Shown here: one piece after another, positions 16,506-56,056 of the stretch | Position numbering within the stretch: the first letter of the stretch is position 1 | Layout of the letters: each line of letters starts with the position of its first letter | Origin: Verrucomicrobiales bacterium | Lineage (GTDB): Bacteria; Verrucomicrobiota; Verrucomicrobiia; Limisphaerales; J093 | Direction of reading: 5' to 3' | Length of the DNA: 64,000 bases | Assembly: GCA_015075445.1 (NCBI GenBank) | Contig: JABTUJ010000035.1 | Span: 1 to 64,000, forward strand | Notes under the pieces: model-generated | The model's database searches: none | What the model was told of the DNA's origin: nothing | What the model saw: the letters and a program-made list of their open reading frames with translations, nothing else | Position numbers and translations under genes: made by a program

Positions 16506-18045
16506 ATGCGCCGGACCGCCGTTCTGAATGTCGTGGGTCTGACCGAGTCCTTGTTCGGTCCGCACACGCCGCACCTCGAGCGCTTTCGCGCCCGGGGCTC
16601 GTGGACCCGCATCGTGCCTGCCTTCCCGGCCGTCACCTGCACCGCCCAGGCCAACTACCTCACCGGCCAACCGCCGCGCGTCCACGGGATCGTCGGCAAT
16701 GGCTGGTACCACCGCGAACTCGCCGAGGTCCACTTCTGGAAGCAGTCCAACCACCTCGTCACCGCGCCCAAGCTCTGGGAAACCCTCCGGGCTCGTCACG
16801 CGCAGGAGCCTACCGCATCGGCCCCGTTCACCTGTGCCACGCTCTTCTGGTGGTTCAACATGTACTCAACCGCGGATTACTCGATCACCCCGCGTCCGCT
16901 CTATCCCGCCGACGGGCGCAAGGTCTTCGACATCCACACCTGGCCCTATGACATCCGTTCCGAGATCAAGCGCGACCTCGGCGAGTTTCCCTTCCCGTGT
17001 TTCTGGGGACCCGCCGCCGGCCGGGCCACCCCCGCCGGATCCCCGGACGCCGCGTCGCGTTGGATCGCTGAATCCGCCAAGTGGATCGAACAACGCTACG
17101 CCCCCACCCTCAGCCTCATCTACCTGCCGCACCTCGACTACAATCTCCAGCGGTTCGGACCGCCGGCTGCGGGGATGAGGGATCGGGGACCACGAATCAC
17201 GAATCACGAATCACGAATCACGAATCACGAATCACGAATCACGAATCACGAATCACGCCCCCGAAGCCGCCCCTGGCGTCTGGGCGGACGTCGCGGCCAT
17301 TGACGCGATTGTGGGGGATCTGATCGCCTTTTTCCAGGCCCGGGGCGTTCAGGTCATCATCCTGTCGGAGTACGGCCTGACCCGGGTGGACACGCCCATC
17401 GACATCAACCGTCTCTTCCACCGGCAGGGCTGGCTGACCGTGAAGGACGAGCTGGGCCGCGAAACCCTCGACGCCGGGGCCAGCCGCGTCTTCGCCGTCG
17501 CCGACCATCAAGTCGCCCACGTTTACCTCAACGACCGGTCGCTGGAGGGCAGGGTGCGGGGTGCCCTCGAGGCCCTGCCCGGGGTCGCCCAGGTCCTGGA
17601 CGCCGACGCCAAGCGTGCGGGCGGTCTGGATCATCCGCGGGCGGGCGATCTCGTGGCGGTCGCGCGGGAGAACGCCTGGTTCACCTACTACTACTGGCTT
17701 GACGACGCGGTCGCGCCCGACTTCGCGCGCTGCGTGGACATCCACCGCAAGCCGGGTTACGACCCGGTCGAGCTGTTCACCAACCCGGCGTGGTCCACGT
17801 TGGGACTGCGCGCCCGGCTGGTCTGGCGGCTTCTTCGAAAGCGATTGGGTTTCCGGATGCTGATGGATGTGATCCCGCTGGACGCTTCCCTGGTCCGGGG
17901 CTCGCACGGCGGTCGTCCGTCCCGTGAATCCGAGTGGCCCGTGCTGTTGTTCGAAGCGCCCGGCGTCCTGCCCGTGCACCCGGTGCCCTCCCCCGACGTT
18001 CACGGTCTCCTCGCCCAGGCAATGGGGTCAAACATTGACATTTGA
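16506..18045 (+). pseudogene. Type I phosphodiesterase/nucleotide pyrophosphatase, frame broken by a 7-bp tandem repeat
   Basis: Two open segments together make one alkaline-phosphatase-superfamily protein. Segment one (16506-17303) has the N-terminal VLNVVGLTESLFGPHTPHLE, the nucleophile region PAFPAVTCTAQANYLTG and IVGNGWYHRE. Segment two, open from about 17258 to 18045, resumes with VWADVAAIDAIVGDLIAFFQ, VIILSEYGLT and VFAVADHQVAHVY. Between them lies a 67-bp run of CACGAAT units that shifts the frame. Loss of one unit, or gain of two, would join the halves into one ORF, because the repeat has no stop in any frame. The final residues come from the dispersed repeat at 18023. Family members hydrolyse phosphodiester or pyrophosphate bonds. 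Confidence 0.82.
17191..17257. repeat. CACGAAT 7-bp tandem repeat inside a coding gene (9.6 units)
   Basis: Nine perfect CACGAAT units followed by CACG. Translated, it gives a repeating ITNHESR heptapeptide in the upstream frame. It has no stop in any plus-strand frame, so copy-number change would act only by shifting the frame. It is the only perfect 7-bp array in the window and the only one within a gene. Confidence 0.95.
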
Positions 18046-35624: not shown

Positions 35625-35755
35625 GTAGGCGACGACGTGAGGAGGCGTTGCGGGCGTAGGTGCCGACGTGAGGAGGCGAAGGGTATCGTTCCTGGTTCAA
35701 AACGCCTCCTCACGTCGGCGCCTACAGCCGTTCGCCTCCTGACGTCGGCGCCTAC
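35625..35755. repeat. Palindromic repeat, GCCGACGTGAGGAGGCG family (double copy)
   Basis: Two ~23-bp arms (35625-35647, 35656-35678) are answered by two inverted arms (35703-35725, 35733-35755), all variants of GTAGGCGCCGACGTGAGGAG plus GCG. It could fold into a long cruciform or hairpin. Other copies: 39466-39545, 46135-46231, 55809-55873. Confidence 0.92.
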
Positions 35756-39404: not shown

Positions 39405-39465
39405 CGGCGAGCCAGGGTGGACGCGGGCCGGGCGTTTGGTGATCACTCTGAACCGCAACGGACCG

Positions 39466-39545
39466 TTGGCGCCGACGTGAGGAGGCGCAGCGGAGGGACA
39501 GCCTCGAGGCCCGAGCCCGCAACGCCTCCTCCCGTCGGCGCCTAC
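39466..39545. repeat. Palindromic repeat, GCCGACGTGAGGAGGCG family
   Basis: The left arm 39466-39487 (TTGGCGCCGACGTGAGGAGG) and inverted right arm 39523-39545 (CGCCTCCTCCCGTCGGCGCC) flank a 35-bp loop. Confidence 0.9.
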
Positions 39546-40492: not shown

Positions 40493-42661
40493 ATGTCAGA
40501 TCACCGCCGTCTGAACCCCCAGCAACGCGAGGCTGTCGAGACCCTTCGAGGGCCAGTCCTGATTCTGGCGGGTGCCGGCACGGGCAAGACGCGGGTGATC
40601 ACCCACCGCATCGCCCACCTCATCGCCTGCGGGATTGCTCCCGGGCATATCCTCGGCGTGACATTCACCAACAAAGCCGCCCGGGAGATGCTCGAGCGGG
40701 TGCGCGAGCTGTTGCCCCGGAGGCAGGCCGAAGGGAAGACGCGGTCGGAAGAGCGCCCGACGATTTGCACCTTCCATTCGCTGTGTGTCCGGATCCTGCG
40801 GCAGCACATCGAGCGGCTCGGGTACAAGCGCAACTTCGTGATCTACGACGAGTCGGAACAACTGGCGGCGATCCGGAAGATCCTGAGCCACCTGTCCGCC
40901 CGGGGCGAGAAGACCGATCCGCACGCGATCTTGAGCTGGCTGAGCCGGTATCGGAATGGCGGCGAACGGGCGGTGGCGTCGGCGGATCCCGGGGTGCGCG
41001 CGATGGCCGAGCACGTGGCGTCGCGTTACGAGTCCGCGTTGCGGGCGTGCAACGCGGTGGACTTCGACGACTTGATCCTGCTGACGCTGCGGCTGTTCCG
41101 GGAGCATCCGGACGCCCTTGAGGCCTGTCGCGAGCGGTATCGGTACGTGCTGGTGGATGAGTACCAGGACACGAACGCGGCGCAGTTCGAGCTCGTCCAT
41201 GCGTTGACCCGTGAACATCGGAACCTTTGTGTGGTGGGTGATGACGACCAGAGCATCTACGGCTGGCGCGGCGCGGAGATTGCGAACCTGCTGGACCTCG
41301 AGCGGCATTATCCCGAGGTGAAGGTCGTCACCCTCGAGCAGAACTACCGGTCCACGACCACGATTCTGAAGGCGGCCAACGCCGTGATCCGACACAACGC
41401 GCGTCGGCGCGCAAAGCAGCTCTGGTCGGATCAGGGGGCGGGGGCCAAGCTGACGCTGTTCAGCTTCGCGAACGACGATGAGGAGGCGACCAGCGTGGTA
41501 CGGGAGATCGAGAATGCCCGGTTGGCCCGGCGGGCGGGTTGGCAGGACCACGCTGTGCTGTTCCGGACGAATGGCCAGTCGCGACCCCTCGAGACGGCCC
41601 TGCGAAAGGCGGGGGTGCGGTATCGGCTGATCGGGGGGCAGAGCTTCTTCGACCGTCGCGAAGTGCGGGACCTGCTGGCCTATCTGAAGCTGATGGTGAA
41701 CCCGGCGGATGACATCAGCCTGTTGCGCATCGCGAACGTGCCGGCGCGCGGGCTAAGCGAGGCGACGATGCAGCGGTTGCTGGCGGCGAGCCAGGAACGG
41801 AAGGGCTCCGTGTTCGACGCGATGAAGAACCCGGTGGTGCTGGCGGGCTTTCCGTTGCGGAGCCGGGAGAGCATCGAGCGGTTTGTGGCATGGGTCGAGG
41901 CCACGGCGGGCAGGCTCGAGACGCCGGTCCACGGGGCGGCGGGAGCCTTGGCGGCCTGGGCAGATGGGTTCCTGGAGGAGATCGGGTACTACCAGGAACT
42001 GCGGCGCGGGGAAAAAGACGCCGAGGCAGCGGAGAACCGGGTGCGGAACCTGAAGGATCTGGTCGGTTCGCTCGATGGCCCGGCGTCGGGACAAGAGCCC
42101 TTGGCTGCACAGGGACGCCCAGGGCCCTTGAATCTGAATCCTCCCCGCCGGGTCCGGTGACCCGGCCTACAGGCTGCAGGCCCGGTGCCCTCACCGGGCG
42201 GCGCGGGGGAACGCTCGCTTCGGACCCGGCTCGAGCGGTTCCTCGAGGATGTCACGTTGGATGCCGAGCGGGAGGAGGAGGAGCCGGGCGTAGGGGACGC
42301 GGTGACTTTGATTACGATGCATAGCTGCAAGGGGCTCGAGTTTCCGCACGTCTTCATTGTGGGGCTCGAGGAGGGGTTGCTCCCGCATGCACGGTCGAAG
42401 GCCGAAGGCACGCTGGACGAGGAGCGCCGGCTGTTCTATGTGGCGATCACGCGGGCGCGGCAGACGCTCAAGCTCAGCCACTGCGCCACGCGGCGGAAGT
42501 ACGGTCAGCCCACCCCCTGCCATCCTTCGCAGTTCCTGAAGGAGCTGCCGGAGGAGCTGGTCGAGCGGGCCGAGGATCGACCGAAGCAGCCGGTGACGCA
42601 GGCGGCGGGTACGGAGTGGTTCGCACAGATGCGCGCGCGGCTGGCCGCGGCCAAGGGGTGA
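40493..42661 (+). pseudogene. UvrD/PcrA-type superfamily 1 helicase with an in-frame stop inside a repeat insertion
   Basis: A DNA helicase split in two. Residues 1-555 carry motif I GAGTGKT, Ia TFTNKAARE, II DEYQD, III DDDQSIYGWRGA and IV LEQNYRST. The remainder, open to 42661 in the same frame, carries motif V TLITMHSCKGLEFPHVF and motif VI EERRLFYVAITRARQTL. Between them the dispersed hairpin repeat (42146-42203) supplies a TGA at 42158-42160. The frame is otherwise uninterrupted (PGLQAAGPVPSPGGAGERSLRTRLERFLED). Without readthrough, both halves lack essential motifs. UvrD/PcrA acts in repair and in resolving replication-transcription conflicts. Another copy elsewhere in the genome is possible. 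Confidence 0.88.
42146..42203. repeat. GGTGAGGGC-family hairpin repeat inside the helicase gene
   Basis: CGCCGGGTCCGGTGACCCGG, then CCTACAGGCTGCAGG, then CCCGGTGCCCTCACCGGGCG. It is an imperfect palindrome of the family at 2868-2938. Where other copies have GTGAGGGCA this one has GTCCGGTGA, which creates the in-frame stop. Confidence 0.85.
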
Positions 42662-42759
42662 GGGCGAGGGGCGAAGGGGGAAGTCTGAAAGTCGAAGGGC
42701 GAAGGGCGAGGGGCGAAGGAGGAAGTCCGAAAGTCGAAGGGCGAAGTACGAGGTGCGAG
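42662..42759. repeat. 7-bp tandem repeat array (14 units) with 49-bp higher-order unit
   Basis: Fourteen 7-bp steps such as GGGCGAA, GGGGGAA, GTCTGAA and AGTCGAA. The order of unit variants repeats after seven units, so a 49-bp block was duplicated and then diverged. In reverse complement the units match the TTCGCCC type at 6854-6923. Confidence 0.88.
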
Positions 42760-42886: not shown

Positions 42887-43021
42887 TTCCCGTCCCAACG
42901 CCGGGGTGTTCCCGTCCCAACGCCGGAGTCGTTCCCGTCCCAACGCCGGAGCGTTCCCGTCCCAACGCCGGGGTGTTCCCGTCCCAACGCCGGAGGCGTT
43001 CCAGATGGTAGCCGGAGGTCG
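42887..43021. repeat. Tandem array of TTCCCGTCCCAACGCCGG units
   Basis: Five copies of an 18-bp core TTCCCGTCCCAACGCCGG are separated by only 3-5 bp. They are followed by a GGCGTTCCAGATGGTAGCCG segment that also occurs inverted at the end of the GH28 gene (6721-6750). Confidence 0.92.
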
Positions 43022-46134: not shown

Positions 46135-46231
46135 GCGCCAAACGTGAGGAGGCCCGGAAGGTATCCCTGGCCCGAAAACGCCTCCTCACGTCGGCGCCTA
46201 CGCTCTGAACGCCTCTGACGTCAGCGCCTAC
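46135..46231. repeat. Palindromic repeat, GCCGACGTGAGGAGGCG family
   Basis: A left arm (46135-46153) with a degenerate core is answered by inverted arms at 46179-46201 (CGCCTCCTCACGTCGGCGCC) and 46210-46231 (CGCCTCTGACGTCAGCGCCT). It lies directly after gpsA. Confidence 0.85.
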
Positions 46232-54652: not shown

Positions 54653-56056
54653 ATGAAACCGACCCCCATTCCTCCGAAGCGTGTTGGGGCAGGGCAAGCG
54701 CTGCGGTTGACCGGGTTGCTTGCCGCCGCCTGCCTCTCCGCCCACGCCGGCGATGCAACCCCCGACCGGCTGCCCGGACCTGCAGCACCTCCCCCGCTGA
54801 CCATCACTCATTGCGACCGCACCGGCGGATGCGTGACGCTCGATCTTACTACACCGGCACCCGCCGGTCGCCATCAACTCGAAGCAAGCACCGACCTCCG
54901 CCACTGGCAGCCGATCCCGATTGCCACGTTCGAGAAGCGGAACGGTGGAACCCTGCGCACGGTGCTCGCCGGCGTGGTGGAGAGCGCTTGTTTCTATCGC
55001 GTGACGCTGCTCGAAGCCACCGCCACCAACCCGCCCGTCTACGTGAACCTGCAGGTGGACGGCGAACTGGAAGACACCCAGGGGTTGCGCACGGTGATGT
55101 CCGAACTGAAGCGACGCCAGATCACCGCGACCCTGTTCGTCACGGCCGATTACGCCAACCGGAACGCGATGCTGGTCACCGAGCTGTTTCAGAGCGGCTT
55201 CGAGGTCGCCCTGCACGGCTATTACACCGGCGAGCAACTGACCTCGATGACCTACGACGAGCAGAAGAACCTGCTCTCGCGGGCCAAGCTCGCGCTCGAA
55301 GGCTGCCGGCCGTGCGGGACGTACAAGCCGATCCTCGGGTTCCGCCCGCAGTACTTCAGCCAGAACGAAGACACCTTCCGGGTTCTGAAGGAGCTGGGCC
55401 TGACCTACAACAGCGGCTTCAAGGTCGGACAGTTGTCCCTCCCCGGCCACACCTGGGACGCCTGGCCGTACCAGGCCCCCGGGCACGACTTCTACGTGCT
55501 CCCCATCAGCACGGTCCCCTCCGACTGCACGCGGGTTTACCTCTGCGATCTCGCCTGCGGCCAGGTGGAGAAATGGACGCCTGCCCAATGGCGCGACGGA
55601 TTGCTCCAGGCGCTGGCAGAAGCGCTCGAGACCCGGCAGCCGCTCGTCGTCTTGCTCCATGGCTATTATGCCGGCGACGAGGCCAAGTACGGTTACTGGC
55701 AGCCCGTGCTCGACTTCCTGGACGCCGCCCAGGGCCAGGTCACCTTCGTCAAGTCCCAAGACCTGGTGGACCTGGCCAAGCCCTCGCCCGGAGGTTCTCT
55801 CCCCCCCCGTAGGCGCCGACGTGGGGAGGCGTTCAGGCGGACACCGCCACCTCGCCTCCTCACGTCGGCCTACGGTCGGGCGCGGTGCATTTTGCCGCTG
55901 CGGCCCGGACGCTCCCGAGGCATTCTGCAACGCTCGTCCCCCCTGCCGGGCGCCCGCCCACACGGCTGCAGGATGGATTTGCCCCGATCCAGCCTGGTCG
56001 TGCACGGTTGGCATCAGAATCGCAGCCAGCCGGGGTATGCTGGTCGCGATCCCTAA
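54653..56056 (+). CDS. Secreted polysaccharide-deacetylase-like protein with a repeat-derived tail
   Basis: A 467-residue exported protein. A signal region (RLTGLLAAACLSAHAG) is followed by a small beta domain of the kind widespread in verrucomicrobial exoproteins (HQLEASTDLRHWQPI...CFYRVTLLE). Residues ~125-380 resemble a NodB/polysaccharide deacetylase barrel (VYVNLQVDGELEDTQGL, TATLFVTADYA, GFEVALHGYYTG, GFRPQYFSQNEDTFRVLKELG, VVLLHGYY). The usual DD and HxxxH metal motifs are only partly present, so activity is doubtful. The native protein should end near 55795; the rest is translated from the palindromic repeat at 55809-55873 and beyond, overlapping the next gene's start. Confidence 0.75.
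   Translation: MKPTPIPPKRVGAGQALRLTGLLAAACLSAHAGDATPDRLPGPAAPPPLTITHCDRTGGCVTLDLTTPAPAGRHQLEASTDLRHWQPIPIATFEKRNGGTLRTVLAGVVESACFYRVTLLEATATNPPVYVNLQVDGELEDTQGLRTVMSELKRRQITATLFVTADYANRNAMLVTELFQSGFEVALHGYYTGEQLTSMTYDEQKNLLSRAKLALEGCRPCGTYKPILGFRPQYFSQNEDTFRVLKELGLTYNSGFKVGQLSLPGHTWDAWPYQAPGHDFYVLPISTVPSDCTRVYLCDLACGQVEKWTPAQWRDGLLQALAEALETRQPLVVLLHGYYAGDEAKYGYWQPVLDFLDAAQGQVTFVKSQDLVDLAKPSPGGSLPPRRRRRGEAFRRTPPPRLLTSAYGRARCILPLRPGRSRGILQRSSPLPGARPHGCRMDLPRSSLVVHGWHQNRSQPGYAGRDP
55809..55873. repeat. Palindromic repeat, GCCGACGTGAGGAGGCG family, inside a coding frame
   Basis: The left arm 55809-55831 (GTAGGCGCCGACGTGGGGAG plus GCG) and inverted right arm 55853-55873 (CGCCTCCTCACGTCGGCCTA) flank a 21-bp loop. 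It adds residues to the deacetylase-like protein. Confidence 0.9.

Follow-up and report, generated by a model that had tools for sequence, protein, structure and literature searches.

The 64,000-nucleotide stretch analyzed here (positions 1 to 64,000 of contig JABTUJ010000035.1 from Verrucomicrobiales bacterium, assembly GCA_015075445.1; referred to below as the window) contains an EboF-like gene of the alkaline phosphatase superfamily whose two halves lie in different reading frames, joined by a perfect run of the heptamer CACGAAT (Table 1). Tandem Repeats Finder (TRF) reports this run with a period of 7, 9.6 copies, a 100% match, and a score of 134; it is the purest heptamer array that TRF detects in the whole window, and its 67 bp correspond to 9.57 perfect heptads. 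Doublets of CACGAAT occur 8 times in the window—compared to 0.02 expected by chance—and all 8 fall inside the array. Immediately upstream, three degenerate heptads that share its register (CGGGGAT, GAGGGAT, and CGGGGAC) extend the repeat beyond what was listed in the preliminary description of this DNA, a set of observations made from the sequence alone.

The open reading frame (ORF) of the N-terminal half reads through the array before terminating. The frame of the C-terminal half is a different one; it is already open before the array begins and runs for 285 codons without a stop. Because the two halves match complementary parts of the PF01663 profile (342 positions), they represent a single gene. 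The TRF result, the chance count, and the combination of profile matches with ORFs therefore bear out two statements of the preliminary description, namely, that the run is perfect over 67 bp and that it joins two halves of one phosphodiesterase gene in different frames. The linker between the conserved flanks measures 145 nt, or 1 mod 3, and thus the removal of one unit or the addition of two would rejoin the frames; the arithmetic previously given for this restoration is correct. It had further been pointed out that the repeat has no stop codon in any frame. This is true but weak as evidence, since approximately 84% of random heptamers at this G+C content are stop-free in one orientation.

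Table 1. Features of the split gene and its heptamer array (positions in the window)
Feature	Position	Strand	Basis
N-terminal half of the EboF-like PF01663 protein; out-of-frame end 46 nt past the array	16506..17303	+	PF01663 2-184, E 3.7e-29
Approximate linker between the DYNLQR and IDAIVG motifs; 145 nt, 1 mod 3, versus 42 nt in relatives without an insert; site of the array	17153..17300	+	Linker comparison
Three degenerate heptads in the array register; CGGGGAC also in the array of the sister species	17170..17190	+	Heptad comparison
C-terminal half of the same gene in the other frame, which is already open ahead of the array and continues to the stop codon	17188..18045	+	PF01663 178-342, E 4.2e-19; 84% identity to G003
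Perfect array, 9.57 CACGAAT heptads	17191..17257	+	TRF, count versus chance

A fold search and an alignment with NPP7 place the fold of the encoded protein, but not its activity, nearest to those of ENPP-type phosphodiesterases and phosphonoacetate hydrolases. In six of six relatives tested, which were picked for having an upstream ORF, the same-strand gene immediately upstream is of the EboD type (PRK06203). The EboF proteins of the ebo cluster form a PF01663 lineage (PMC5133447), and “EboF-like” is therefore the most suitable name for the product. The resemblance to the ebo cluster has a limit: no EboD-type gene scoring over the cutoff was found in the window genome (G000) or in that of its sister species (G003), whereas in G002 and G005 such a gene is present and adjoins the eboF-like gene. 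The gene encodes an orphan, metabolic-type enzyme that would be atypical as a surface antigen. When the EboF-like family (window positions 16506-18045 and P0003) is compared to ENPP, the metal motifs DSTGH and SDHG align with DYNLQ and SEYG, respectively; metal binding in this family may differ from that of ENPP. In the predicted model of the insert-free homologue P0003 (mean predicted local distance difference test score of 81.5, with values of >90 around the loop), the array site corresponds to a short loop that connects the helix at 202-210 to the one at 217-237.

The array-bearing loop across the order

Among 320 genomes from the order, 237 have the gene, and 112 distinct linkers were extracted. 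Of these, 65 are minimal, while the other 47 (∼40%) carry inserts of up to ∼160 nt. Linker length is a multiple of three in 111 cases, the window being the sole exception, and OFF states thus do not recur among related loci. In genomes where the profile match is split, both halves share one open frame, contig edges aside. Period-7 arrays are found in 11 linkers (window included); with 0.00 expected in shuffled sequences, a chance origin of this period was rejected. No other period occurs in more than one linker, except for 14, which is a multiple of 7. The heptamer units themselves vary (e.g., CACGAAT, GGACCAG, GGCAGAA, and AATCCGC), and none of the ten heptamer-bearing linkers outside the window is OFF. 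If frames were free, the probability of at least 10 of 11 heptamer linkers being in frame would be 1.3e-4, a value uncorrected for relatedness. Other inserts consist of inverted repeats or repetitive extragenic palindrome (REP)-type palindromes, and three of the insert families recur elsewhere in the genome that carries them, with 54 copies in G029, 46 in G037, and 93 in G222. Placing the presence of heptamers on the protein tree calls for 8 changes, at least 6 of them on well-supported branches.

Based on the repeated arrival of unrelated inserts, the multicopy insert families, the preservation of frame in 111 of 112 linkers, and the number of changes on the tree, the loop is a recurrent, frame-filtered landing site for repeats across the order. 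A parallel in this respect is provided by the Rickettsia palindromic elements (RPE), a set of dispersed repeats that have become in-frame parts of conserved proteins (PMC2229807). The inserts of G029, G037, and G222 are likewise multicopy and in frame; the window repeat is multicopy, but its frame is not kept. In contrast to RPE, unrelated repeat classes (heptamers, REPs, and inverted repeats) here share one loop of one gene. The order is thus one in which selfish-type repeats re-enter a single protein loop while leaving the gene unbroken, and it supplies many natural replicates for the study of protein tolerance to foreign sequence, as well as of the birth, rewriting, and loss of tandem repeats under frame selection.

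Age of the frame break and competing explanations

In the sister species (FR_27, a Pedosphaerales metagenome-assembled genome), the gene lies in a single frame and contains a GGACCA-type heptad array, which occupies the same register as the array of the window and has the heptad CGGGGAC in common with it. A heptamer array was therefore probably present in the loop before the two species split. The linker of the sister species measures 135 nt (0 mod 3), such that the window linker is 10 nt longer, a difference made up of 3 in-frame nucleotides and exactly one heptad. Since the sister species is one net heptad shorter and in frame, a change of one unit is enough to alter the frame.

The C-terminal half remains 84% identical to that of the sister species. 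Between the two genomes, the ratio of nonsynonymous to synonymous substitution rates (dN/dS) is 0.09 for the N-terminal half and ∼0.19 for the C-terminal half, with dS at ∼0.34, and the C-terminal half has 14 derived amino acid changes on the window side and 18 on that of the sister species. Given the dS of ∼0.34 in its flanks, the perfect 67-bp run must be young; given the continued conservation of the C-terminal half and the balance of derived changes, the break itself is recent. The preliminary description had raised independent loss of the downstream half as a contrary possibility. Such loss, or replacement, is ruled out by a C-terminal half that is both open and conserved.

The best explanation, to which we assign a probability of roughly 0.7, is that a young heptamer array with rapid turnover, located in a tolerant loop, recently gained one unit by slippage and truncated the EboF-like protein. 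The array belongs to a large heptamer family dispersed through this Pedosphaerales (Verrucomicrobiota) genome, with members in intergenic DNA and others, in frame, within permissive gene loops. Repetitive DNA has entered the loop of the EboF-like alkaline phosphatase superfamily protein repeatedly over the order, and a heptamer array would already have been there when the sister species diverged. In the window genome, the units of this array would have been replaced by CACGAAT, and growth of the linker by one net heptad would have placed the C-terminal half out of frame. The resulting genotype should yield only a truncated, presumably inactive protein, although slippage would be reversible in principle. 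Several points weigh against this reading. The species is represented by a single genome, in which the number of units may reflect a minority state or an error of assembly or consensus. The placement of the array before the species split rests on one common heptad and a common register. Finally, at highly conserved positions of the C-terminal half, there are 5 derived changes in the window compared to 1 in the sister species, a weak hint of an older relaxation. The confidences attached to this and the following readings overlap and do not sum to one, as a recent slip may be fixed, a switch state, or an error of count.

A tentative alternative is that the gene is dying: loss of the EboD-type partner would have relaxed selection on the eboF-like gene, with the frameshift as an irreversible step toward a pseudogene. 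The distribution of the partner is compatible with this scenario, as no EboD-type gene exceeds the cutoff in the window genome or sister species, yet one adjoins the gene in G002 and G005; the excess of derived changes at conserved C-terminal positions points the same way. However, dN/dS values of 0.09 to 0.19 were obtained between two genomes that both lack the partner, and 285 codons of the C-terminal half have acquired no stop.

It is unlikely that the gene is in reality intact, with an in-frame number of units, and appears broken through an assembly or consensus error. Tandem repeats are prone to such errors, the window assembly consists of 100 contigs at 86.7% completeness, and all other homologues are in frame. 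On the other hand, the window shows no break in seven neighboring genes, three of which are frameshifted in contig C12 of the sister assembly (L139-L142); general indel errors in the window assembly are unlikely on this basis. An error of repeat count at the array itself is possible, although 67 bp is short enough to be spanned by a single short read.

Somewhat less probable still is the interpretation originally offered for this locus, a selected phase-variation switch that would turn the phosphodiesterase ON and OFF in the population through reversible array slippage, the sequenced genotype being OFF. The precedent is neuO (unit AAGACTC; Escherichia coli K1/CUS-3 prophage), where the number of units in a coding heptamer array likewise sets the frame; 65.6% of genomes have neuO in the OFF state (PMC13001214). 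The anatomy of a slippage switch does fit the window: the array is perfect over nearly 10 stop-free units, both halves are still conserved, the loss of one unit or gain of two restores the frame, and the sister species is in frame at a difference of one net heptad. A selected switch would be possible, but several observations count against it. A single state was seen, in the one genome available for the species; every other homologue is ON, including the ten with heptamer arrays; heptamer arrays occur throughout the genome, mostly between genes; and the gene encodes an orphan enzyme of metabolic type. The neuO array, moreover, lies in the 5′ region of its gene, in contrast to the mid-gene loop occupied here. 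If the window array does vary in the population, heptamer slippage would constitute a source of ON/OFF variation for enzymes of uncultured Verrucomicrobiota.

Heptamer arrays and other repeats in the genome

A survey of 764 kb of the window genome, partly picked around known CACGAAT sites, showed that period 7 predominates among its tandem repeats, with 29 of the 90 array clusters. Of the period-7 clusters, 19 are intergenic and 10 genic, against a noncoding fraction of ∼14%. The family thus occupies many, mainly intergenic loci, and in its genome-wide spread and variable copy number it resembles the short tandemly repeated repetitive (STRR)-like heptamers of Nostoc and Xanthomonas and the intergenic and intragenic GGGACCG elements of Geobacter metallireducens. 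It differs from these repeats in that several arrays are in frame in catalytic domains and in that one loop is reused across an order. No account of heptanucleotide repeats in Verrucomicrobia was retrieved by a literature search.

The genes that carry in-frame arrays encode two FG-GAP/ASPIC proteins, two kinases, and two pyridoxal phosphate (PLP)-enzyme-like products, and the arrays are all in the stop-free orientation; in one kinase (Pkinase) and one aminotransferase (Aminotran_1_2), the Pfam domain itself contains the array. The unit CACGAAT is present at ≥8 loci in the window genome, three consecutive copies of it are absent from the three congeners, and it is uncommon within the order, with 8 of 196 genomes positive, which together suggest spread by copying or homogenization within the genome. 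It could be proposed that the order-wide landing site and the in-frame heptamer loops of kinases, an aminotransferase, and the EboF-like gene form distributed slippage toggles of metabolic and signaling enzymes in Pedosphaerales, but we consider this improbable; its landing-site component is supported, and its toggling component is not.

Several individual arrays were recorded. A second coding CACGAAT array of 9.3 units, a candidate slippage site, lies in frame within a Ser/Thr kinase domain at L134:8594-8658 (G000 C41:18594-18658), and a GAAGGGC array lies in frame within an Aminotran_1_2 domain at L133:1167-1324 (G000 C24:121167-121324). Two in-frame arrays on one contig (L116:7306-7434 and L116:15402-15534) occupy corresponding positions, near residue 900 of 1,300, in two FG-GAP/ASPIC genes. 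An identical double heptamer array with its flanks appears at both G000 C14:41416-41478 and C80:2292-2354, representing either a repeated region or an assembly duplicate. Within the window, an AGGGCGA-type array with periods of 7 and 42 bp (42661-42758) lies near a 22-bp repeat of 5.2 copies (42887-43002).

The REP-type palindrome CCTCCTCACGTCGGCTCCTAC is abundant, with 533 copies in the window genome and 507 in that of the sister species (≤2 mismatches; controls gave 0). Copies in the window are located at 35625-35755, 39465-39545, 46181-46201, and 55809-55829, and almost all copies in the sample are intergenic. The possibility that the heptamer arrays form part of this element was rejected in the window genome, where the nearest copy is at least 1 kb away; in some relatives, heptamers are located inside the REP-type inverted repeat. 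The window genome also contains 15 matches to Y1_Tnp-type transposases.
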